Positions 17,765 to 57,918 of a stretch of 64,000 nucleotides of DNA are shown in pieces. The translations under genes and the position numbers were made by a program. The notes under the pieces were generated by a model. The model was not told the origin of the DNA. It saw only the letters and a list, made by a program, of their open reading frames with translations, and searched no databases. This stretch comes from Nitrospirota bacterium (GTDB lineage: Bacteria; Nitrospirota; Thermodesulfovibrionia; Thermodesulfovibrionales; Magnetobacteriaceae). Location: NCBI GenBank assembly GCA_015233895.1, contig JADFXG010000002.1, positions 1-64,000 of the forward strand, in the 5' to 3' direction. Position 1 is the first letter of the stretch. Each line of letters starts with the position of its first letter.

Positions 17765-19126
17765 TTAAGAGACAGTATAAGAGAAATACTTGGACTCGTA
17801 AGTATTCCCGCTTGTATCATAAATTATTTCAAAATAATAGTAGGTTCCTGTTTCAGCCGCATATGGAACATAGATATCCAGATTGCTTGCAGAAAATGTC
17901 TGTCCTGATAATATAGTTTGTCCACTGGTTTGAGTCAGCCAGGTGCCGCTTGGTGTGTAAATATAAGCATACATAGAATAGGTAGAGTTTGTATTATTGG
18001 TAATGGTTGAGGAAAACGGCCCCAAATTACCCCCACGAGATACTGTTGTTGTCGTTGGTGATGTAATCGTATGCGTCAGTGATGATGTGGATGACGATAA
18101 TGAACCGGTATAAATATATCCAGGATAAACTCCGGCAGCAAGTTTATTCCCGTCTGACGATGAAGTTATTGTTCGCCAATTTCTGCTACCGGCACTCGAT
18201 TGAGCACTCCATGTAGCACCTGAGTCTGTTGAGGTATAGATATAGCCACCATAAACTGAAGCAGCGAGTTTGGAGCCATCTGATGAGGACGCTATTCCAT
18301 ACCAATATCCGCTGCCGGCACCTGTTTGCTCAGTCCATGTAACACCTGAATCTGTCGATGTATAGATATAACCATAATAAGCTCCAGCAGCAAGTTTATT
18401 CCCATCTGATGAGGACGCTATTACTTGCCAGTTTCTTTTACCGGCACCTGTTCTTTGAGTCCAGGTAACGCCAGAATCTGTTGAGGTATAAATATAGTCA
18501 CCTGAAATATTAAAATCCTGAAAAACCACAGCAGCGAGTTTGGAGCCATCTGATGAGGACGCTATTCCATACCAATATCTTCTGCCTGCGCTCGTTTGCA
18601 CTGTCCATGTAACACCTGAATCTGTTGAGGCGTATATAAACCCACCCTCGCTATTAGTATCCTCATAATTAGTCAAAGCCGCGAGTTTGGAGCCATCTGA
18701 TGAGGACGCCATATTATACCAATATCTTCTACCTGCCCCGGTTTGTATAGTCCATGTAGAGCCGGAGTTTGTTGAGGTATAAATATACCCACCATAACCA
18801 ATACCATAAATATCAGCAGCAGCGAGTTTTGAACCATCTGATGAGGACGCTATTGACCACCAACTTCCGCTACCGGCGCTCGTTCTCTCTGTCCATGTAG
18901 AGCCAGAGTCTGTTGAGGTATAGATATACCCACTATTAGTAGATCCGGCAGCTAGTTTTGAACCATCTGATGAGGACGCTATTACTTGCCAATTTCTGCT
19001 GCCAGCACCTGTTTGAGCAGTCCAGGTCCATCCGGCATGGGATAGTGTTGGTAACAGCACTGTCAGCATTATAACCAATACCAACAAAAAGCTTAAAACC
19101 CTATTTGATTTAAAGACAACTGCCAT
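17765..19126 (-). CDS. Secreted seven-repeat beta-propeller protein
   Basis: 453 aa. A signal peptide (to about residue 31) is followed by seven repeats of 42-49 aa with the pattern WT.QT.AGSR.W..IASSSDGSKLAA....GYIYTSTDSG (about residues 33-345), the count expected for a seven-bladed BNR/sialidase-like propeller, then a C-terminal Ig-like domain (about residues 350-453). It would act outside the cytoplasm. A six-repeat lipoprotein with the same repeat lies at 21774-22661. No enzymatic motif can be pointed out. Confidence 0.8.
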   Translation of the reverse strand: MAVVFKSNRVLSFLLVLVIMLTVLLPTLSHAGWTWTAQTGAGSRNWQVIASSSDGSKLAAGSTNSGYIYTSTDSGSTWTERTSAGSGSWWSIASSSDGSKLAAADIYGIGYGGYIYTSTNSGSTWTIQTGAGRRYWYNMASSSDGSKLAALTNYEDTNSEGGFIYASTDSGVTWTVQTSAGRRYWYGIASSSDGSKLAAVVFQDFNISGDYIYTSTDSGVTWTQRTGAGKRNWQVIASSSDGNKLAAGAYYGYIYTSTDSGVTWTEQTGAGSGYWYGIASSSDGSKLAASVYGGYIYTSTDSGATWSAQSSAGSRNWRTITSSSDGNKLAAGVYPGYIYTGSLSSSTSSLTHTITSPTTTTVSRGGNLGPFSSTITNNTNSTYSMYAYIYTPSGTWLTQTSGQTILSGQTFSASNLDIYVPYAAETGTYYYFEIIYDTSGNTYESKYFSYTVS

Positions 19127-21773: not shown

Positions 21774-22661
21774 ATGAAAAGGTTATTATTCTTAATGTTT
21801 ATACTGCTTATTATGGCATTAAGCGGATGTGGCGGAGGCCCCATAACAGCAGGGTCAACAACATCATCAACAACGACATCCGTGGCACCTTCTGCGGATA
21901 ACTATACATGGACAGCTCAAACCAGTGCCGGCAGCAGGAACTGGGACTCAATAGCATCATCATCGGACGGAGCCTCACTTGCCGCTTCAGTTTATGGCGG
22001 ATATATTTATACTTCGACAAATTCCGGTTCCACATGGAGTGTAAAAAGTGCTGCCGGAAGCAGATATTGGTACTCAATAGCGTCATCATCAAACGGGACT
22101 GCACTTGCCGCTGCAGTTTATGGCGGATATATATATACCTCTACAGATTCTGGTTCCACATGGACAGCTCAAACCAGTGCCGGCAGCAGAAGCTGGTACT
22201 CAATAGCGTCATCATCGGACGGAACAAAACTTGCTGCTGTCGATTATGGCGGATATATTTACGCCTCAACAAATTCCGGCTCCTCATGGACAGCACAAAC
22301 CTCCGGTGGTATCGAAAACTGGAAATCAATAACATCATCATCGGATGCAACAGTACTTGCTGCGACAGTTTATGGCGGATATATTTATATATCGACAAAT
22401 TCCGGCTCTACATGGACAGCACAAACAAACGCTGGCACTGGAAATTGGCATTCTATCGCAACATCACCGGATGGAACAGCGTTCGCTGCAACAGTTTATG
22501 GCGGATATATTTATACATCAAAAGATTCAGGTTCTACGTGGATAACTCAAACAAATGCCGGCAGCAGAAACTGGTATTCAATCGTGTTATCATCATACGG
22601 AACAAAATTCGCTGCTGTTGATTATGGCGGATATATTTATACTGGTATTTCAAACTATTAG
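21774..22661 (+). CDS. Six-repeat beta-propeller lipoprotein
   Basis: 295 aa. Signal peptide with lipobox LSGC (Cys about residue 19), a Thr/Ser linker, then six repeats of 42 aa (126 bp) of the form WTAQT.AGSR.WYSIASSSDGT.LAA.VYGGYIYTST.SGST. The repeats are close copies at the DNA level. It is a paralogue of the secreted protein at 17765-19126, on the opposite strand and with one repeat fewer. Likely exported and membrane-anchored; the ligand is unknown. Confidence 0.8.
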   Translation: MKRLLFLMFILLIMALSGCGGGPITAGSTTSSTTTSVAPSADNYTWTAQTSAGSRNWDSIASSSDGASLAASVYGGYIYTSTNSGSTWSVKSAAGSRYWYSIASSSNGTALAAAVYGGYIYTSTDSGSTWTAQTSAGSRSWYSIASSSDGTKLAAVDYGGYIYASTNSGSSWTAQTSGGIENWKSITSSSDATVLAATVYGGYIYISTNSGSTWTAQTNAGTGNWHSIATSPDGTAFAATVYGGYIYTSKDSGSTWITQTNAGSRNWYSIVLSSYGTKFAAVDYGGYIYTGISNY

Positions 22662-32935: not shown

Positions 32936-34570
32936 TTATCTTTTGGGTGACATATTCATCAGGAATCTGATGATTTGTACTAATGCGCCTTTAACCGTTG
33001 TGACTTCACTGGTCAGTCCTGTGAGTTTTCCTTCTAAGGTGGACTGCACGTCTTTTGTCTGAGTTTTTACGATTGATAAATCGTTGGAGAGTGATGAGAG
33101 TGAGTCTAATTTATTTTCAAGGCCGATTAGAATTCCACTGTTTATGCTTGCTATTTTTTCGTAATCTATCCTTTCAACAGTGAACTTTTCGTAATCTATC
33201 TTTTCGTATTCATTTGTTGATTGAACTCTTTGGCTTGCTGCAAGGAAATTTCCTAAAACCGAGACAACATCCCCCATCTGTTTTGAAAGCTCAGTGAGCT
33301 TTTCCTCTATTACAGTTGTGTGTTCAGTAGTGTTGATTACAGGCATTGATGAGCTGACAGGAGCGCTCTTACCGGCACCAGAGGCAAGAAGAGCGTTTAA
33401 CACTGATACCATATTTCCGGTCTGTTTTGAAAGCACAGAGAGTTTATTTTCTAAGCCTGTCTGATTATTCTCAATCCGGTTAATTACTGATGGAATCTCT
33501 CTGAGGGCTGAGGCAAGAGGTACCAATAACTTTTCAAAATCCCTCATAGAGCCTTTGCTGACATCGGCTATTTTTTCGTAATCTATAGTCTCAAAATTCA
33601 GTTTTGACAGCTCAGCTTTATTTATACCGCCCTTTTGAGCTGCTCCCACAGCAAGAAGCCCCTTTAAGGCTGACAGCATCTCCACAGTGTGTTTTGAAAG
33701 CCCGCTGAGTTTACCCTCCACTGCCGCCTGATTTTTCTCAAGCCGGCCTATAAGCGATGGAATGTCTCTAAGAGCAACTGTTAGCGGCACAAACCGGCGT
33801 TCAAAGTCCTGCAAGGCATCCCTGTTGGCATTGGTTATTTTGTCGTAGTCTGTTTTCTGAGCGCCAATATTAACAGTGGCGGCAAGCAGAGTGCTAAGAG
33901 CCTTTGAAATCCCTGCTATTTGCTTTGAGAGATTGGAAAGCGCCGATTCATTAACAGCATGGCCTATATCAGAGTCTCCTCTAAGTGATGGGGCAGCGTC
34001 CCGTGAGACTGATAAAAACGCAGCCAGCCTCTTTTCAAATTCTCTCAGCGTTTCTTTTGTGACATCAGAGATTTTTTCGTAATCTATTTTATCGTGCTCT
34101 CTTCTTACATAGTTTATTGCCGGCAGACTCTCTCCTTGTCCATCTGCATTTTGACGGCTGCTAAGAGACTCTAAAACATCCATTAACTGCTCAGACAGTG
34201 TGGTTATCTTTTCCTCAATACCAGCCTGATTTTTCTCAAGCTGTTTCTTAAGCATCGATAAGTCACGGAGGATTGTTGAAAACACATCATATTTGGTTTC
34301 AAATTCTTTAAAGTTCTTCTTGCCAGAACTAAGGATTCTCTCAATGTCTTTTATCTTTAAATCCAATCTGCCTTTTGTATTTAACTTTACAGCTCTTCTA
34401 AAAACAGGACCAACTGAACCCTTTGGCTTCAACACGGTAACAGCATCCGCTGCCTTTGAAACAAGACCCGCAGTAGTGTCATAGACATTTACAATGGCTG
34501 AGCCGCTTGCATTTAACGCTTTTGCCAATCCGCCTGCTACAAGCGATCTTCTTTCTGATGTATCATCCAT
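32936..34570 (-). CDS. Soluble coiled-coil repeat protein of the magnetosome cluster, with ALNASGSAI N-terminal module
   Basis: 544 aa. The ATG at 34570 has the ribosome site ggaggag and matches the HEAT protein start (MDD); the GTG 4 codons upstream sits inside that site. Residues about 9-45 form a module (GLAKALNASGSAIVNVYDTT then AGLVSKAADAV) shared at 24 of 31 positions with the HEAT-repeat gene at 39846-41153. The rest has about five degenerate repeats with the linker IDYEKI..... and (L/M)(R/Q)(D/E)FE(K/R)(R/L), the same repeat family as the VWA protein next door, and a matching C-terminal end (ALVQIIRFLMN). No signal peptide. Function unknown; inferred scaffold. Confidence 0.75.
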   Translation of the reverse strand: MDDTSERRSLVAGGLAKALNASGSAIVNVYDTTAGLVSKAADAVTVLKPKGSVGPVFRRAVKLNTKGRLDLKIKDIERILSSGKKNFKEFETKYDVFSTILRDLSMLKKQLEKNQAGIEEKITTLSEQLMDVLESLSSRQNADGQGESLPAINYVRREHDKIDYEKISDVTKETLREFEKRLAAFLSVSRDAAPSLRGDSDIGHAVNESALSNLSKQIAGISKALSTLLAATVNIGAQKTDYDKITNANRDALQDFERRFVPLTVALRDIPSLIGRLEKNQAAVEGKLSGLSKHTVEMLSALKGLLAVGAAQKGGINKAELSKLNFETIDYEKIADVSKGSMRDFEKLLVPLASALREIPSVINRIENNQTGLENKLSVLSKQTGNMVSVLNALLASGAGKSAPVSSSMPVINTTEHTTVIEEKLTELSKQMGDVVSVLGNFLAASQRVQSTNEYEKIDYEKFTVERIDYEKIASINSGILIGLENKLDSLSSLSNDLSIVKTQTKDVQSTLEGKLTGLTSEVTTVKGALVQIIRFLMNMSPKR

Positions 34571-34614
34571 TAACTCCTCCACTCTATAATAACGCTGCTA
34601 TTCATGTTTTTCCA

Positions 34615-37600
34615 CTACTTCCCCTGTGTCTGTATTGAGCCCAGAAGCCTGATAACATTTATAAGGGCGTCTTTAAATGTTGTCATTTCCGCTGAAAGCC
34701 CAGATAGTTTTTCTTCAATATCGCTCTGATGCTGCACAAAAGCGTTCCTCATTGGTGGAATTCCGGATATAAATGACGATACATCATCCAGCCGCTTTTC
34801 AAAGTCTTTCAGGGTTTCTTTTGTGGCATCAGCTATTTTTTCGTAATCTATCGCTTCGTAGTCAGTCTTTTGGGCGCTTTGTTTAAGCTCAAATAGCTCT
34901 GCTGAAAGAGTTGACAGCTTGGCTTCAATATCGCTCTGATGCTGCACAAAAGCGTTCCTCATTGGTGGAATTCCGGAGATAAATAATGATACATCATCCA
35001 GCCGCTTTTCAAAGTCTTTCAGAGTTTCTTTTGTGGCATCGGTGATTTTTTCGTAGTCTATCTTCTCATAATCAATAGCTTCATGGTCTGTTTTTTGTGT
35101 ACTCTGTTTAAGCTCAGAGAGCTGCTCTGCAAGTGTTGAAAGTTTGGCCTCTATATCGCTTTGGTGCTGTACAAAAGCGTTCCTCATAGGCGGAATTCCT
35201 GAGATAAATGCAGATACCGCATCAAGCCGCTTTTCAAAGTCTTTCAGAGTTTCTTTTGTGGCATCGGTGATTTTTTCGTAGTCTATCTTTTCATAATCAA
35301 TAGCTTCATAGTCTGTTTTTTGTGCACTTTGTTTAAGCTCAGAGAGCTGCTCTGAAAGTGTTGATAGTTTGGCTTCTATATCGCTTTGGTGCTGTACAAA
35401 AGCGTTCCTCATTGGCGGAATTCCTGAGATAAACGCCGACACTGCCTCAAGCCGCTTTTCAAAGTCTTTCATCGTTTCCTTATTGGTATCAGCGATTTTT
35501 TCATAATCTATTTTCTCTTGTACAGTCATTTCATGGTCAGGCTTCTTTTCTGCGTTTTGTTTAAGCTCAGAGAGCTGCTCTGCAAGTGTTGAAAGTTTCT
35601 CTTCTATATCACTCTGGTGCTGTACAAAAGCATTCCTCATAGGCGGAATTTCTGAGATAAATGCAGATACCGCATCCAGCCGCTTTTCAAAGTCTTTCAA
35701 TGTTTCTTTTGTGGCATCGGTGATTTTTTCATAATCTATCTTTTCATAACCAATAGCTTCTCTGTCGGTTTTTTGTGCGCCTTGTTTAAGCTCAGAGAGC
35801 TGCTCTGCAAGGCTCAAAAACATACCCTCTATATCGCTTTGATGCTGCACAAAGGCGTTTCTCATAGGTGGGATTCCGGTTATAAACGCCGACACTGCCT
35901 CAAGCCGCTTTTCGAAATCCTTCATCGTTTCCTTGTTGGTATCAGCGATTTTTTCGTAATCTATTTTCTCTTGTACAGTCATTTCATGTCCAGCCTTATG
36001 TATGTTTTGTTTAAGTTCGGAAATCATAGTTTCAAGGTGTGACAATTTCCCCTCTATATCAAGTTGGTGCTTTTCAAAAGTATTCCTCATAGGTGGGATT
36101 CCGGTTATAAATAAGGAAACTGCCTCAAGCCGCTTTTCAAAATCCTTCATCATTTCCTTCGTAGCAATGGCTCCTGTAAAAGTCCCAAGTTTAGAGGCAA
36201 AGTCAACAGTAAGCGCATTTTTCAACTCAGCAACTATCTCCAGAAAAGTTTCTTTAACCTTAGCATGAGTTTTACCTACGCTATCTGTCAGTTCATCTTT
36301 AATTGACTCTCTTATGCCATCATAAATCTTGTCAAAAGCCCCTGCCCCTGCGCCTACAGTATTAGTGATGGCTGCTATATCTTGCTGTAAAGTCGCATAC
36401 TCCTGACTCTTTGTCTCTCTGACATTAGAGATAGCATTTTTTGTTTCCATTTCAAGTCTTCTCAGAATGTTTTTTAGATTCTCCTGAATGCCCTCAACAA
36501 ATTCTCCCAATAAGCCGTGAATAAATGACTCAACTCCCTCGTTATCTGTTATTACCAATTCCGCTCTCTTTATTTCAGCAACTCCGGCAGTGACCTTTTT
36601 AAGCTCATCCTGTATGGCTTTGACGGCTTGTGTAACAGAGGTATCGTCAGATTTCCCACCTTTCCTTAGCAGCAATATAATCACTATTACAAACAGTAAC
36701 ACCACAGTTAACAGCAAAAGCAGCCACTGATTGCTTTGCACAGATGTCTTCAATGGCGAATCAACAACAGTCTCTTCTTTGGGTTTAGACTCAACAGCGG
36801 CATGAGGTGTGCTCTCAGGTGTCTGGACATTGGCTGCAGGTATTATGAATTCTTTCTTTAACTCGATGTCCTGTCCCTGATGCTTCAATTTAACAATACA
36901 CACGTGTTTACCAGTCGGCCCTGAGTAGTTGTAATCTATCAAATATTTAATCCGCTTAGGAATGAAAATAGTTCGCGAAAGAGTCTGAATCTCCTCAAAG
37001 CCTGGATTTACCAGCAAAGTGCCTTTTGTCAGTTTTGTAATGTTGTCAAGGGGCTCAAAGTAATGCCGGCTGTTGCCAAAAATCATCACATTGACAGGAA
37101 TATGAGGTTTTTTAATTTCTTTCATGAGAGTTTCAATCGGTATATCGCTATCTTCATCTTTAGCATCAGTAATAACAAGCATAGATGTCTTTGCCGTTTT
37201 AGATTTTTCGGCTAATTTAATTCCCTCTGAAATGCCGCTATAAAGCAGTGTTTTTTTCTCAAGAGCTGTTAGTGAATCTATTTTACTTGTGAGAACAGAT
37301 TTATCATCAGAGAGATTCTCAATAACTTTTACATAGTTACCAAAAGTCAAAAGAGTCGCATAGTTACCATCGCTAAAAGGAGCCAGCAGGTAGGATGCGT
37401 ATTTTTTTGCATTTGCAATCGGAATCCCGTTCATGCTTCTGCTGACATCTATTGCCAAAATAAGCGACGTGGACTCATCGTTAACCGATGTTATAGAAAA
37501 ATCACCAATTGTTTGGCCATCTACGGTAATACTGACGTTTTCCTTTTTTAACGGAACATCAGTTTCGTTAGAGACCACTACAGCCGCAACTTTAGCAAAA

Positions 37601-37734
37601 TCTCTGACCTTTACATCGTTTAATTCAAAAGGAGCTTTCTTAGGATTGGTAGCACCAACAGAGGCAACCACAACTGATACAACTAATACTAACAACACTG
37701 CAACTATTGCAGTAAGAACCACCCTCTTTTTCAT
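34615..37734 (-). CDS. Membrane-anchored von Willebrand A protein with seven coiled-coil repeats
   Basis: 1039 aa. N-terminal membrane helix or signal (about 6-27), a VWA domain (about 85-260) with MIDAS residues in DVSRS (96-100) and VITD (190), a Pro/Glu-rich linker, a second membrane helix (about 337-356), then a long coiled-coil region. From residue about 528 to the end there are seven copies of a ~73-aa unit: (L/M)KDFEKRLDAVSAFISGIPPM then RNAFVQHQSDIE.KLS.L.EQLSELKQ, linked by IDYEKI.D..KET. By topology the VWA domain would face the periplasm or magnetosome lumen and the repeats the cytoplasm. It is the second-to-last gene of the magnetosome cluster. I know no characterised homologue. 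Confidence 0.82.
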   Translation of the reverse strand: MKKRVVLTAIVAVLLVLVVSVVVASVGATNPKKAPFELNDVKVRDFAKVAAVVVSNETDVPLKKENVSITVDGQTIGDFSITSVNDESTSLILAIDVSRSMNGIPIANAKKYASYLLAPFSDGNYATLLTFGNYVKVIENLSDDKSVLTSKIDSLTALEKKTLLYSGISEGIKLAEKSKTAKTSMLVITDAKDEDSDIPIETLMKEIKKPHIPVNVMIFGNSRHYFEPLDNITKLTKGTLLVNPGFEEIQTLSRTIFIPKRIKYLIDYNYSGPTGKHVCIVKLKHQGQDIELKKEFIIPAANVQTPESTPHAAVESKPKEETVVDSPLKTSVQSNQWLLLLLTVVLLFVIVIILLLRKGGKSDDTSVTQAVKAIQDELKKVTAGVAEIKRAELVITDNEGVESFIHGLLGEFVEGIQENLKNILRRLEMETKNAISNVRETKSQEYATLQQDIAAITNTVGAGAGAFDKIYDGIRESIKDELTDSVGKTHAKVKETFLEIVAELKNALTVDFASKLGTFTGAIATKEMMKDFEKRLEAVSLFITGIPPMRNTFEKHQLDIEGKLSHLETMISELKQNIHKAGHEMTVQEKIDYEKIADTNKETMKDFEKRLEAVSAFITGIPPMRNAFVQHQSDIEGMFLSLAEQLSELKQGAQKTDREAIGYEKIDYEKITDATKETLKDFEKRLDAVSAFISEIPPMRNAFVQHQSDIEEKLSTLAEQLSELKQNAEKKPDHEMTVQEKIDYEKIADTNKETMKDFEKRLEAVSAFISGIPPMRNAFVQHQSDIEAKLSTLSEQLSELKQSAQKTDYEAIDYEKIDYEKITDATKETLKDFEKRLDAVSAFISGIPPMRNAFVQHQSDIEAKLSTLAEQLSELKQSTQKTDHEAIDYEKIDYEKITDATKETLKDFEKRLDDVSLFISGIPPMRNAFVQHQSDIEAKLSTLSAELFELKQSAQKTDYEAIDYEKIADATKETLKDFEKRLDDVSSFISGIPPMRNAFVQHQSDIEEKLSGLSAEMTTFKDALINVIRLLGSIQTQGK
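34620..36153 (-). repeat. Seven tandem in-gene repeats of about 220 bp
   Basis: The coding repeats of the VWA gene remain very similar at the DNA level (for example gcgttcctcattggtggaat recurs with few changes at each unit). Two sub-types alternate: units ending in a MTVQEKIDYEKIADTNKET linker and units ending in an AIDYEKIDYEKITDATKET linker, which suggests duplication of a two-unit block. Copy number could vary between strains. Confidence 0.8.
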
Positions 37735-37906: not shown

Positions 37907-38482
37907 TCAGTCTATATGATAGTTGTGCATTATTTTAGATAATGAAACTTTACTTTCCACCTCTTTAAAAGCCTTATGTACCTGTTTTAAAATAACATCG
38001 TATTCAGTAAACTTTGGCATGATGAGTTTCTTTTTTCTCTCAACTGAGTTTAAAGCATTCTGGATTTCATTAAACTTTGCAACCACTATTTCCTTGTCAT
38101 CCCTTACCTGAGAAAGCTCATCCCTGAGATGGTTTTTAACGCCAACAGTGTTTTGTAAATCCTCTTCCACTATTTTTATATTTCCCTTATAACGGTTTAT
38201 CTCCTCAATAATGCGATCCTTTTTGCTGTGTAAATCATCTATAGCACTGCCATAACCCTCCACCCTGGATTGCTCACGCTCAAACTCCTCTTTCGTCCTC
38301 TTTATGATAACTTCAAGTCCCTCGGTCTGTCCGGTAAGCGCTCTCAGCCTTTCTTTTAAAACAGCGTTTACTTTAGTCAGCTCTTCTTTACTTTTAGCAA
38401 GAATCTTTAGCTCGTCTATAAGTTCATGAACCTCTTCAAACACACTCTTTTCGGAATACATATCATCCATCAGTTCGTCCAT
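37907..38482 (-). CDS. Coiled-coil protein of the magnetosome cluster (Mad-like)
   Basis: 191 aa, nearly all predicted heptad helix after an acidic N-terminus (MDELMDDMYSEKSVFEEVHE). No membrane segment. It is the last of three consecutive coiled-coil genes. Long coiled-coil proteins (Mad23, Mad25, Mad26 group) are known from magnetosome clusters of Nitrospirota and Desulfobacterota with bullet-shaped crystals; I cannot say which, if any, this is. A 172-bp gap to the VWA gene start shows no gene. Confidence 0.7.
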   Translation of the reverse strand: MDELMDDMYSEKSVFEEVHELIDELKILAKSKEELTKVNAVLKERLRALTGQTEGLEVIIKRTKEEFEREQSRVEGYGSAIDDLHSKKDRIIEEINRYKGNIKIVEEDLQNTVGVKNHLRDELSQVRDDKEIVVAKFNEIQNALNSVERKKKLIMPKFTEYDVILKQVHKAFKEVESKVSLSKIMHNYHID

Positions 38483-39845: not shown

Positions 39846-41153
39846 CTACATACCCTCTCCTGAAGTCTCTGATTGTTCGGCAGCTTTCACTGAAGCACCA
39901 TTAGAAACCGATTCGGCCACTAACGGGGACAACTCCAGCGTCTTTACCCCCTGCCACCATCTCCTTAACTTATCTATCTCCGATGCAAGCACATCCCCTG
40001 TGAGATCAACATTGAAAGACACATACTCGCCGGTTATTGTATTTATGGCTTCAAGCGCCTTTTCCCGTATGTCGCGTGATTCATCGGTAAGAGTGCGAAT
40101 AAGGGGTGAGACGGCTGACTTGTCTTTTATCGTTGAGAGGGCTGTTATGGCCGACTTTTTGACTCCCTCATCTCTGTCGTGAAGCGCTTGTACAAGGGCT
40201 GGAACAGTGTCTGAGGAGTCTCTCCAGCCAAGGAATGTGGCCGCTGTTTTTCTGACCTCCTGGTGTTCATCCTTAAGTGCATTTAGCAGCACCGGAATTG
40301 CGTTATCGTCTCCGGCAAGCTTGTAAAGCCCCCGCAAAGCTCCCACTCTCACTCTGAAATTTGAAAACCTCGCAGCCTCTTTTAAAAACGGGATAGCAGA
40401 AGTGTCGTCCAGATTTATAAGCGCATTTATTATGTCTGAAATAAGGTATGGATTTTTGTAGCCTGCAGCCTCTATCAGTATTGGCACGGCTGCCTTAAAC
40501 CCAAAGCGTCCAAGCTCAGACACCGCCATTATCTTTATTTCCATCTCAGAGTCAAGAATGTCCCCGGCAATTTTAGCAAATATCTCCCGTTCAGAGTCCG
40601 TTAAAAACTCCTTGCTCCTTATTGCACGCTGTATGGCTGCCTCTACGGAGGCCGCTACTTTGCTCTCATCCGGTTTACCTTTTTTATTTAACGAGCTGGT
40701 TGCAGATTTTGATTGGTGTCTCTGCGCCTCTTCCTGGTTTTCAAGCTCTTTGAGCTCTGCCTGTCGGGTTTTTAACCGCTCTATCTCACGTTCGTAGTCT
40801 TTAACCTGTCTGACAATCGCCCCTATGCTTTCCGATTCGGCATCCTCTCCCTCAGCACTAAGTCTCCCGACCTCAGCGTAGAGTTTCTTTACTTTACCCT
40901 CGTAATCTTTAATTTTAGCATCAAGGCTCTTTTTCTCACCCGGCTTTGTAAGTCTCAGAGAAGAGAACATATTGTCCGGAAACTTTGGCAGAGCTGGCAT
41001 TCTGGGCGTAATGTTGACCACAGAGTTTGCCGCTTTTGAGACAAGGTCTGCCGTTGTGTCGTACATGTTTAAAATAGCAGAGCCGCTTGCGTTTAACGCC
41101 CTTGCAAACCCATCAAGTATAGATGATTTCCCTTGTGTTGATTTATCGTCCAT
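39846..41153 (-). CDS. HEAT-repeat protein with the ALNASGSAI N-terminal module
   Basis: 435 aa. Residues about 12-48 (GFARALNASGSAILNMYDTT then ADLVSKAANSV) match the N-terminus of the soluble repeat protein at 32936-34570. A coiled coil follows (about 70-150), then five to six HEAT/PBS-lyase-like repeats (about 190-390; AVPILIEAAGYKNPYLISDI, AIPVLLNALKDEHQEVRKTA, AVSPLIRTLTDESRDIREKA). HEAT arrays bind partners. Position in the magnetosome cluster and the shared module suggest a role with the repeat proteins. RBS gggaggt. Confidence 0.78.
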   Translation of the reverse strand: MDDKSTQGKSSILDGFARALNASGSAILNMYDTTADLVSKAANSVVNITPRMPALPKFPDNMFSSLRLTKPGEKKSLDAKIKDYEGKVKKLYAEVGRLSAEGEDAESESIGAIVRQVKDYEREIERLKTRQAELKELENQEEAQRHQSKSATSSLNKKGKPDESKVAASVEAAIQRAIRSKEFLTDSEREIFAKIAGDILDSEMEIKIMAVSELGRFGFKAAVPILIEAAGYKNPYLISDIINALINLDDTSAIPFLKEAARFSNFRVRVGALRGLYKLAGDDNAIPVLLNALKDEHQEVRKTAATFLGWRDSSDTVPALVQALHDRDEGVKKSAITALSTIKDKSAVSPLIRTLTDESRDIREKALEAINTITGEYVSFNVDLTGDVLASEIDKLRRWWQGVKTLELSPLVAESVSNGASVKAAEQSETSGEGM

Positions 41154-49597: not shown

Positions 49598-49639
49598 GCG
49601 ACAGCGCTCCTTCTATAATAACTATTTACTTTAAAAGAG

Positions 49640-49731
49640 GAGATTGCGACGTCGCTAACGCTCCTCGCAATGACAGATAGGGAAAAGAACGAGATTACTA
49701 CGTCGCTGTCGCTCCTCGTAATGACGGATAA
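49640..49731. repeat. Two adjacent family-A palindromic repeats
   Basis: 49640-49680 (GAGATTGCGACGTCGCT start) and 49691-49731 (GAGATTACTACGTCGCT start) are each about 40 bp, with CTCCTCG(C/T)AATGAC near the end. They match the unit at 8599-8638 and lie just upstream of mamB, within the gap between mamB and the second mamQ gene. Confidence 0.7.
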
Positions 49732-49740
49732 GAAAACTCT

Positions 49741-49877
49741 GCCTCGAGCCGTCGTTGGACAATCCGCAAAGCTTCGAGCCGTCGTTGGACAATCCGCAAA
49801 GCTTCGAGCCGTCATTGGACAATCCGCAAAGCTTCGAGCCGTCATTGGACAATCCGCAAAGCTTCGAGCCGTCATTG
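49741..49877. repeat. 30-bp tandem repeat (minisatellite) between mamB and mamQ-II
   Basis: Four full copies (49741-49860) of a unit that reads gcttcgagccgtcattggac then aatccgcaaa, and a partial fifth, with a C-to-G and A-to-G change between copies. The period is a multiple of three, so it gives spurious repetitive open frames on both strands; these are not genes. It runs into the family-B palindrome at 49872-49908. No promoter is obvious in the 347-bp gap 49598-49944. Confidence 0.9.
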
Positions 49878-54972: not shown

Positions 54973-56043
54973 TTATTTTTTCTTACTGCCTATCTCGTTC
55001 CAATACTCCTCGGGCATGTCTTTACAGAGCATCAGTGCGCCGTTTGCACCCGCAAAAAGAGTTTCCTCAATTCGGGTAACTTTGCCGTAGCCGAGATTTT
55101 TTTTCATATAATCTTCTATTTCTTTTTTAAGCCCCGCTATCTGGCTGCCGCCACCGGCTAAATACACATTTTCTTTGAGAATTCCCTGAAACTCCGGATC
55201 AAACGTAGCGATGAGTTTTTTTATCCCCTCGACTATCTCCGGCACTACCTCTCTGCAGGCCATCTTTAGCTCATTTGTAACATCATGCCGTTCCGGTTTG
55301 CCTTTTACTGGAATCTCTATAAAAATACTGTCGCCGTGTTCAGATATATTAGCGTTTTCCTCTTTAAATCTCTTTACCATATTTACTGTAAAATTAGCGT
55401 CTCCGTGCTTTTTCATAATCAGGTCGTAAAACACCGAATCAACGTAGTCACCTGCTTTAGTCGTTGTAATTTGGTCCTCATCGGAGGGCATTGTGCCGTG
55501 CATTCTGCATAGATCCACGGTGCCTGCCCCAATGTCAACAATAAGAACATTATTAAGCAGATTAAGCCCATAAGCAACCGCAAACGGCTCAGACACTATC
55601 ATCACATCATCAAGAATTCCTGAGGCTATTTCAAGCAGCACTTTTTTGTTTTTTCTGCTAGCCATAGCTGGAGCACCAAGCACTCCTCTTACTATAAAGT
55701 CACCTTCAACATCGGTGCTGCCCTCTTTCGCTATCTCTATCAGATGCCTCAAAAGCTCCTTTGCCGCATCTATGGACTTCTGGTACTCTACATCTTTTTC
55801 CGTGAGCTCATCTGTGTATTTAAGCATTCCCTTATCAAATGGTCTGTAAAGCGTAACTGCCATCTTATTTCTCAATGCGTCATCGCCAAAGGCAATGTCT
55901 TTGCCAAGCAGCTTTTTTGATATCGCATCTTTAGGAAACCCCACATAGCTTGATACAAAAGTCCTTATACCGTTATCGCAGGCTATAACGCTTCTGGATG
56001 TCCCCAAATCTATTCCGACGTTTAACACATGTCTGTCAGACAT
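54973..56043 (-). CDS. mamK: MamK actin-like protein
   Basis: 356 aa. Phosphate-1 motif LNVGIDLGTSRSV, phosphate-2 VLIVDIGAGTVDLCRMHGTM, adenosine motif NVYLAGGGSQIAGL, and the VGFPKDAISKKLLGK segment are those of MamK rather than ParM or MreB. MamK forms cytoplasmic filaments that position magnetosome chains. RBS aggagaaag. It is the second gene from the top of the magnetosome cluster. Confidence 0.93.
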   Translation of the reverse strand: MSDRHVLNVGIDLGTSRSVIACDNGIRTFVSSYVGFPKDAISKKLLGKDIAFGDDALRNKMAVTLYRPFDKGMLKYTDELTEKDVEYQKSIDAAKELLRHLIEIAKEGSTDVEGDFIVRGVLGAPAMASRKNKKVLLEIASGILDDVMIVSEPFAVAYGLNLLNNVLIVDIGAGTVDLCRMHGTMPSDEDQITTTKAGDYVDSVFYDLIMKKHGDANFTVNMVKRFKEENANISEHGDSIFIEIPVKGKPERHDVTNELKMACREVVPEIVEGIKKLIATFDPEFQGILKENVYLAGGGSQIAGLKKEIEDYMKKNLGYGKVTRIEETLFAGANGALMLCKDMPEEYWNEIGSKKK

Positions 56044-57065: not shown

Positions 57066-57737
57066 TTATCTGACAAGACCCAACATTTTGGAGAGAACAT
57101 CGAGTGCGCGATTATTAGTTAAGATTATTGTGAAAAAAAGTATCAGGAAGTATAACTTCATCTCAAGGCGAACACTTTTAAATTCAGCATACACATTTTT
57201 AAACTCACCTTCTAGTCTGGCAATATCAGCCTTTGTATTACCTTCTAGTCTGGCAATATCGGCTTTTATATCACCCTCCAGTCTGGCAATATCGGCTTTT
57301 ATGCTGCTCTCCAGCTTGACAATATTACCCTCCAGTCTGGCAATTTCATCTTTTGTTGCAAGTTCCAGTTTGGCAATATTACCCTCCAGTCTGGCAATTT
57401 CATCTTTTGTAGCAAGTTCCAGCTTGACAAACTCTGCTTTCGTAGCAAGCTCTAGTCTGGCAAATTCAGCTTTTGTACTGCTCTCCAGCTTGATAATATC
57501 GGATTTTGTAGCAAGTTCTAGCTTGATAATTTCGGCCTTTGTACTACCTTCAAGCCTGACAATATCGGCTTTTGTAGCAAGCTCATTAGACAACTCATCT
57601 TTAACTTCAGATTTATTTAACCTGGTGGCCTCAGAAAGATCCCGTAACGCCTCTGCTATCTCCTTTGCCGCCCTGTCCTCAAGGTCTGCACCCCTCAGCC
57701 GCTCATACATACGCAATGTGTCAAATGATACTGCCAT
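57066..57737 (-). CDS. DUF1640-type coiled-coil protein with 11-residue repeats
   Basis: 223 aa from the ATG at 57737 (MAVSFDTLRMYERL, the usual DUF1640 start). The middle has about a dozen copies of an 11-residue unit (TKADIARLEGN and TKDEIAKLELA types; 33 bp), which fits a right-handed coiled coil. One C-terminal membrane helix (LYFLILFFTIILTN). Function unknown. The repeats are also near-identical DNA, so length may vary. Confidence 0.78.
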   Translation of the reverse strand: MAVSFDTLRMYERLRGADLEDRAAKEIAEALRDLSEATRLNKSEVKDELSNELATKADIVRLEGSTKAEIIKLELATKSDIIKLESSTKAEFARLELATKAEFVKLELATKDEIARLEGNIAKLELATKDEIARLEGNIVKLESSIKADIARLEGDIKADIARLEGNTKADIARLEGEFKNVYAEFKSVRLEMKLYFLILFFTIILTNNRALDVLSKMLGLVR

Positions 57738-57918
57738 ATTTATATTCAATCAAAATATTAACAAAAAAAGCAATAGACAATTAAAAAAAATCATCAGTCA
57801 AAATATTTGCAAAGGCTATCCGCAACTAATTTGTTTTTCATGTCGGCTGCCTCAGCATACAATCTAGATGTATTTGAATAGGCAGCAGTTTTAAATCACT
57901 GGTTTTAAACACTGTCTT

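Follow-up and report, generated by a model that had tools for sequence, protein, structure and literature searches.

A VWA membrane protein and a partner with a Mad23-type N-terminus at the end of a Nitrospirota magnetosome cluster: a candidate pair for chain positioning

How magnetotactic Nitrospirota place and hold magnetosome chains in multiple bundles is regarded in the field as a mystery (PMC11344931). The stretch of DNA analysed here (the window: 64,000 nucleotides of contig JADFXG010000002.1, assembly GCA_015233895.1, family Magnetobacteriaceae) raises the question of whether a gene just behind its magnetosome genes has a part in this. A sequence-only reading had placed the gene at the end of the magnetosome cluster, and it does follow mad26, the end of the man1-mad26 cluster, its start lying 172 bp past that gene, with a second repeat gene (the partner) another 32 bp further on (Table 1). 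The assignment of mad23 and mad26 follows gene order and agrees with PMC9376291.

Table 1. Coordinates of the features discussed, as positions in the window.
Feature	Position	Strand	Remarks
VWA-TM-repeat gene	34615..37734	(-)	ATG start, 1039 aa
N-terminal hydrophobic helix, aa 5-23	37666..37722	(-)	anchor or signal peptide
VWA domain, aa 91-252	36979..37464	(-)	Pfam PF00092, E=3.4e-10
MIDAS DVSRS, aa 96-100	37435..37449	(-)	site completed by T162, D190
Second membrane helix, about aa 336-357	36664..36729	(-)	RKGGK comes next
Linker, helix-rich, aa 361-508, membrane to repeats	36211..36654	(-)	read from translation
Seven IDYEKI repeat units, aa 509-1026	34657..36210	(-)	period 75 aa
C-terminal 40 aa of VWA protein	34618..34737	(-)	motif common to partner and family relatives
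Partner gene	32936..34582	(-)	548 aa; starts at GTG, or at an ATG four codons downstream
Mad23-type N-terminal segment of partner, aa 1-57	34412..34582	(-)	match to Mad23
Partner repeat region, five significant units	32975..34363	(-)	phmmer i-E 4.5e-5 to 9.7e-11
C-terminal 40 aa of partner	32939..33058	(-)	motif of VWA protein
mad26	37907..38482	(-)	last gene of published man1-mad26 cluster; gene order
mad23 (N-terminal segment and HEAT repeats)	39846..41153	(-)	HEAT_2 E=5e-32; gene order
mamK, same cluster	54973..56043	(-)	NF040964, 470 bits

In the encoded protein, a hydrophobic helix at the N-terminus precedes a VWA domain that has all five MIDAS residues; another membrane helix follows, and then seven repeats. 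The VWA profile search matched PF00092 at 40.8 bits against the Pfam cut-off of 23.8, and the MIDAS, described as complete-looking from its DxSxS (96-100) and Asp190, was borne out with T162 added: D96, S98, S100, T162 and D190 show no variation in 12 aligned homologues. In the VWA tree, calculated without the paralogue rows G148b and G381b, which do not match the MIDAS pattern, and without f25_L021 and f25_L023, the window's genus forms one well-supported clade with no resolved placement among the VWA relatives. Both proposed membrane helices reappear in the hydropathy of the near-identical homologue from genome G325 (5-23 and 338-356) and in a single-sequence model of the window protein (2-27 and 328-358) whose overall confidence is low; a model of the VWA part alone reached a mean pLDDT of 39. 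The predicted topology supports the proposal that the VWA domain lies outside the cytoplasm and the repeats inside; for the first helix, a signal peptide that is cleaved off is just as possible.

A phmmer search matched all seven units (i-E <= 5e-21 for each), so that the count given earlier stands; the unit length does not, being 75 aa rather than ~73 aa, with spacings of 75, 75, 76, 75, 75 and 70 aa and a DNA period of 225 bp. Repeat number varies, from about four units in genome G079 to seven in the window and G325. The repeats are predicted to be helical, as the sequence-only reading required, although its term "coiled-coil" overstates the case: the low-confidence model (A3, with five rows from the window; mean pLDDT 56) predicts a helix pair per unit with a break at the PP motif, and non-helical EKIDYEKI linkers between units. 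Domain names such as gp25, HepT, AIP3, SMC, Rad50 and KfrC that appeared over the repeat region were taken as coiled-coil noise, and the self-BLAST for internal repeats was disregarded, as it returned no match for any protein, including one that clearly has repeats.

The VWA gene is kept in all four genomes seen of the window's genus, with dN/dS between relatives of 0.13-0.26 in the VWA part and in the tail as a whole, and is thus not a chance open reading frame; the linker alone gives 0.21-0.34, and mad23 and mad26 give 0.11 for comparison. Promoter and terminator scans performed no better on the window than on shuffles.

The neighbouring gene had been overlooked in the sequence-only reading and changes the picture considerably. 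It combines a Mad23-type N-terminus with five further significant IDYEKI units and a C-terminal helix as in the VWA tail. Over ~51 aa the N-terminus is 59% identical to that of Mad23 (E=2e-14 among 167 window ORFs; 57.4 bits vs 22.7 for the best of 200 shuffles), and beyond this segment the partner has IDYEKI repeats where Mad23 has HEAT repeats; no HEAT family match was found in the partner, and hydropathy of the G079 and G096 partners indicated no membrane helix. In RS-1, Mad23 joins magnetosomes into subchains, and its HEAT part has been suggested to bind Mad25 (PMC12748827). Across 395 Nitrospirota genomes the Mad23-type N-terminus is present in 20, namely all 19 with MamK of at least 447 bits plus G335, and is therefore a useful marker that tracks high-scoring MamK. 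It is otherwise confined to Mad23 itself, and a second copy occurs only in the window's genus (4/4), always in the partner. A further search with Mad23 and VWA queries against 80 loci gave no match at E <= 1e-5. The link to magnetosome chains, first proposed from architecture and place, is consequently better supported than before, since the partner joins the Mad23 N-terminus to the same repeats.

The two proteins also resemble each other at their C-termini (40% identity over 53 aa; 42 bits vs 24.6 for the best of 200 shuffles). A search of the window's own genome with this motif returned exactly the VWA protein and the partner, and the motif is strong in 12 of the 13 genomes of the family, with three weak matches in the 382 others; the G079 VWA protein is without its last part. 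Further genera of this family likewise have a membrane VWA protein whose neighbour is soluble, helical and carries the motif, indicating that the pairing of a membrane and a soluble component is older than the move to the cluster.

Other Nitrospirota clusters were searched as had been proposed. Both genes follow mad26 in all four genomes of the window's genus (in G325 they lie on separate contigs), and this place is specific to that genus rather than conserved across magnetotactic Nitrospirota. The pair is absent at the cluster end in all eight other-genus family genomes with that end in view, two of whose contigs stop soon after, so that magnetosomes as such do not depend on it; in G309, which has the cluster, there was no VWA relative and no C-terminal motif.

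On balance we think it probable, from the sequences, that the VWA protein and its partner would form a two-part device holding or positioning magnetosome chains at the cell envelope. The VWA domain would grip a divalent-metal-dependent periplasmic partner and thereby mark out a linear or patch-like zone of the inner membrane, with the tail reaching into the cytoplasm. This tail and that of the partner may associate via the repeats or the C-terminal helices that they share; alternatively, each may bind a third protein. The Mad23-type N-terminus would dock the partner on the machinery of the chain, either on Mad25/Mad26/MamK or on the magnetosome surface; repeat number would set the reach and be free to change. 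We favour this reading because of the VWA architecture with its complete MIDAS, the chimeric partner whose N-terminus tracks MamK genomes and occurs as a second copy in that protein only, the common C-terminal motif nearly confined to the family, and the precedents of McaA and Mad23 (PMC9512821, PMC13170167, PMC12748827). Points that tell against a tether are the missing pair in the other genera, the incomplete motif in G079, the low model confidence, the lack in the partner of the putative Mad25-binding part of Mad23, and the VWA relatives located away from magnetosome genes.

These relatives resemble the window protein in their VWA domain with MIDAS, membrane helix, long helical tail and C-terminal motif, but are only 25-29% identical over the first ~377 aa, have no IDYEKI repeats and lie outside the magnetosome cluster. 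The magnetosome link had been said to fall if the same gene stood unlinked in non-magnetotactic relatives, and this was found in part: VWA-TM relatives do occur away from magnetosome genes, that of G174 in a genome without MamK above the cut-off, but none carries the repeats. In G132, G148, G381 and G174 they stand among ORFs that read as kinase-, phosphatase- and second-VWA-like, and in G235 a dynamin-like GTPase gene (PF00350) comes after the VWA gene; judging by these neighbourhoods, the pair was likely recruited from an older membrane module. They also lend weight to the alternative that a general envelope module, serving envelope upkeep or division, stands beside the cluster by chance. 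Similar VWA/GTPase/kinase operons have been proposed to remodel membranes (PMC2875224), and some relatives likewise have intact-MIDAS VWA proteins beside kinase or GTPase genes. In the window, unlike in those operons, the VWA gene has no kinase or GTPase gene beside it, and the family's dynamin-like protein has no match in the window's own genome. With a partner N-terminus otherwise restricted to Mad23, and both genes behind mad26 throughout the genus, we consider a chance neighbour unlikely, though it deserves to be taken seriously.

The closest working analogy to the proposed device is the McaA/McaB pair of Magnetospirillum magneticum AMB-1, in which McaA acts as membrane landmark and McaB on the magnetosome side; the proteins themselves are different. 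Both systems comprise two neighbouring genes, and McaA likewise has a signal or membrane helix, a periplasmic VWA domain with intact MIDAS, a membrane helix and a cytoplasmic tail, the layout predicted for the window protein. McaA forms a dashed line at positive curvature in a MIDAS-dependent manner; the MIDAS is required for localisation and the C-terminal region for positioning and McaB binding (PMC9512821, PMC13170167). McaB, a helical protein, is considered to be located on magnetosomes, and its counterpart here would be the helical partner; McaB has an N-terminal membrane helix, whereas the partner has the Mad23 N-terminus instead. Both Mca proteins bind MamK and alter its dynamics (PMC13170167), and by analogy the pair might act from the membrane to control the actin-like filaments of MamK and Mad28 rather than serve as a mechanical tether. 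We regard this as distinctly improbable, as neither protein has a known MamK-binding motif; it would be compatible with tethering.

A reversed topology, with the protein forming surface or periplasmic filaments and the repeats outside the cytoplasm, draws on the possible cleavage of the first helix and on the predicted nature of the topology, and is very improbable given the strong second helix after the VWA domain, followed by RKGGK, and the recurrence of the repeats in a partner with a cytoplasmic-type N-terminus and no signal. Sequence comparison separates the VWA protein from McaA itself. We take genome G404 to be AMB-1 (a mamK-like gene beside an mcaAB pair; a McaA/McaA-like pair), and it contained no McaA match to the VWA protein at E <= 10. 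Direct BLASTP gave 18.5 bits (E=2.1), and the conserved, McaB-binding residues 530-665 of McaA gave no BLASTP alignment beyond chance matches. The tail of the VWA protein, made up of IDYEKI repeats, is a further difference. Profile comparison returned a probability of 0.4% from shallow alignments that also failed for McaA against another VWA protein, and in the VWA tree McaA lies far away. McaA membership was therefore rejected and McaA kept as an analogy: despite the same layout and the McaA/McaB homologues retrieved from magnetotactic Proteobacteria classes and Nitrospirae (the Nitrospirae genes being unnamed in the main text; PMC9512821), a true orthologue spread among phyla is scarcely credible, and mcaA/mcaB have elsewhere been assigned to Alpha- and Gammaproteobacteria only (PMC9840458).

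The pair is undescribed, lies just beyond the border published for the man1-mad26 cluster and offers a concrete candidate for chain placement in magnetotactic Nitrospirota. A bolder version, which we hold tentatively and rate below even, is positioning by domain swap: an envelope VWA module, linked in other settings to dynamin-like GTPases or kinases, would have been drawn in when the tail of its membrane protein was joined, in a second gene, to the chain-docking segment of Mad23, giving a second, independent landmark of the McaAB type, in which repeat number would act as an adjustable ruler that spaces the chain from the envelope. The pair suggests that VWA membrane landmarks were enlisted for this task on more than one occasion.

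The window carries a Nitrospirota magnetosome cluster whose genes, man1 to mad26, follow the order already published (genes named by order after the excerpted texts of PMC9376291 and PMC8353452, the mam genes by NCBIfam and mad23 as the HEAT protein). Beyond mad26, where the cluster is made to end in the excerpts of PMC9376291, PMC8353452, PMC11344931 and PMC9840458, lie the VWA gene, after 172 bp, and the partner gene, after a further 32 bp. Both genes are present in all four genomes seen of the window's genus (G000, G325, G079 and G096), in G325 on separate contigs. Neither was found at the cluster end in eight family genomes of other genera (G241, G235, G337, G381, G132, G148, G172, G309), in which the cluster is syntenic and followed by unrelated genes; this absence is weaker for G148 and G337, since the contig of the former stops 425 bp past mad25 and the latter was read only about 1.1 kb beyond mad26. 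G152, the fourth type among the other genera, for which the view was limited to mamK neighbourhoods, stands outside the count of eight. The pair is a genuine addition to the magnetosome cluster, conserved at the level of the genus, and the limited, partly excerpted literature collection searched yielded no description of a VWA gene after mad26 or of the partner gene.

Features of the gene pair, its relatives and other repeats in the window
Feature	Location	Strand	Description
VWA gene	34615-37734	-	ORF, 1039 aa
Partner gene	32936-34582	-	548 aa
mad23	39846-41153	-	HEAT protein
Mad23 N-terminal segment	40983-41153	-	AKALNxxGxAxxxxYDxT
VWA gene end in G079 (complete genome)	L064:8088-8130		Different frame, without IIRFL part of C-terminal motif; VWA gene overlaps partner gene by 8 bp
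Operon-like group in G132	L233:5412-9522		Dynamin-like GTPase, small helper (YYVDVVTKNIL... or LYIDIVSKTII...), soluble helical or VWA protein
Operon-like group in G235	L067:5492-12515		As for G132
Repeat array between mamB and mamQ-2	49744-49877		30-bp unit, 4.5 copies, 99% identity
Adjoining repeat	49633-49730		51-bp repeat
Two divergent genes	17765-19126 and 21774-22661	opposite	Imperfect 126-bp (42-aa) tandem repeats
Gene upstream of man1	57066-57749		Coiled-coil, 33/54/66-bp repeats

The VWA protein matches Pfam VWA at residues 91-252 (E=3.4e-10), and the MIDAS that had looked complete in the sequence-only reading is borne out by an alignment of 12 homologues, in which D96, S98, S100, T162 and D190 are all invariant. 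With two membrane helices (5-23 and 338-356, from hydropathy of the near-identical G325 homologue) and RKGGK following the second, the VWA domain is predicted to lie outside and the long tail inside, in agreement with the earlier proposal; the first of the helices may instead serve as a signal peptide. Between relatives, dN/dS lies at 0.13-0.26 in the VWA part and in the tail taken whole, and at 0.21-0.34 in the linker alone, with 0.11 for mad23 and mad26.

From residue 509 the tail holds seven IDYEKI units, each matched by a single-unit query at i-E 5e-21 or better; the count of seven thus stood, while the spacing (75, 75, 76, 75, 75, 70) is mostly 75 residues and not the roughly 73 first proposed. 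The repeats had also been taken to be helical, and a structure model built on an alignment of window units only predicts two helices per unit, with a break at an IPP motif and a non-helical EKIDYEKI linker between units; its mean pLDDT is only 56, and it therefore supports a helical nature but not a fixed shape. Repeat number varies, with about four units in G079 against seven in the window (the G096 repeat region contains an N-run), which is how a spacer would be expected to behave.

Searched with one IDYEKI unit, the 167 window ORFs gave significant matches only in the VWA gene and the partner, which has five significant units. Residues 1-60 of the partner match the Mad23 N-terminus (59% identity over 51 aa, 57.4 bits, E=2e-14 against the 167 ORFs; best of 200 shuffles 22.7 bits), the 60 residues at its other end align with the VWA protein's C-terminus (40% over 53 aa, 42.4 bits; best of 200 shuffles 24.6 bits), and a domain scan found no HEAT domain in it. 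On these grounds the partner is, by sequence, a Mad23 N-terminus fused to the VWA protein's tail, which is good evidence of this kind for a tie to the chain machinery.

The same layout as in the VWA protein is found in McaA of AMB-1, in which localisation and function depend on the MIDAS and McaB binding requires residues 530-665 (PMC9512821, PMC13170167); McaA and McaB each bind MamK (PMC13170167). Genome search, BLASTP and profile comparison with McaA from a genome taken as AMB-1 gave no match to the VWA protein, the profile comparison having little power because it fails equally when McaA is set against an unrelated VWA protein. Given the same layout and no sequence match, we suggest by analogy, on present evidence, that the protein works like McaA, and have not filed it as McaA. 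The methods of PMC9512821, as excerpted, mention Mca homologues from Proteobacteria classes and Nitrospirae, and the excerpt of PMC9840458 places mcaA and mcaB in Alpha- and Gammaproteobacteria only; the Nitrospirae sequences meant in the former might be the family of the window's VWA protein.

The layout, MIDAS, shared tails, Mad23 N-terminus and gene order of the pair are evident from the sequences; action as a tether or landmark is the most likely reading, and a plausible one. The VWA domain would mark a place on the envelope through metal-dependent binding and its tail would reach inwards; the two tails would meet via repeats or C-terminal helices that they share, or by both binding a third protein, and the Mad23 segment would bring the partner to the magnetosome chain. 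In RS-1, magnetosomes are scattered upon loss of Mad23, whose HEAT repeats have been credited with the contact to Mad25 (PMC12748827). In the G079 VWA protein the C-terminal motif is missing its final part, an argument against the C-terminal helix being essential.

The full VWA protein matched 20 of 395 Nitrospirota genomes at E<=1e-8: 12 of the 13 family genomes (all but G309) and, from other families, G174 and seven genomes of f25. Family relatives outside the window's genus combine VWA, TM and a long helical tail, have no IDYEKI motif, and are encoded on a contig different from that of mamK. The eight of them read over their whole length all finish in the C-terminal motif; the protein of G174, a genome with no MamK over the cut-off, has an FHA domain in its place. 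A profile of the last 40 residues matched 15 of 395 genomes, comprising 12 of the 13 in the family (E 3e-15 or better) and three of 382 outside it (E 3e-5 to 7e-4, over 23 positions), and found only the VWA protein and partner in their own genome. It also picks out a soluble helical protein in six g2 genomes, G172 and G415. In four g2 genomes (G381, G148, G132, G419) the gene for this protein lies next to one for a dynamin-like GTPase (the G132 GTPase matches PF00350 at E=5.7e-14), and in G235 such a gene comes after the VWA gene itself (PF00350 E=8.4e-19). Of 19 family genomes, 14 have dynamin-like relatives, and none was found in the window's own. As relatives' genomes carry both a membrane VWA protein and a soluble protein with a common C-terminus, this pairing seems to be the older arrangement. 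The move beside mad26 and the gain of the Mad23 N-terminus seem to be a step of the window's genus, in an order of events that we infer; in the VWA tree the branching point of that genus among the relatives is not resolved.

A profile made from the Mad23 and partner N-termini of family members matched 20 of the 395 genomes at E<=0.001, namely all 13 family genomes in the sample and G114, G180, G228, G289, G335, G331 and G007; outside the family a match denotes the N-terminal segment, not necessarily a HEAT protein. Nineteen of these coincide exactly with the genomes whose MamK scored at least 447 bits; MamK exceeds the family cut-off of 400 in 53 genomes, and the remaining 34 (<=441 bits) lack a Mad23-type N-terminus. 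G335 has this N-terminus (E=1.4e-6) and no MamK over the cut-off, suggesting a lost or missing cluster. Each genome has one such N-terminus, but the four of the window's genus have two, the second lying within the partner gene. The Mad23 N-terminal segment, which tracked high-scoring MamK across the 395 genomes, may be a marker of magnetosome gene clusters.
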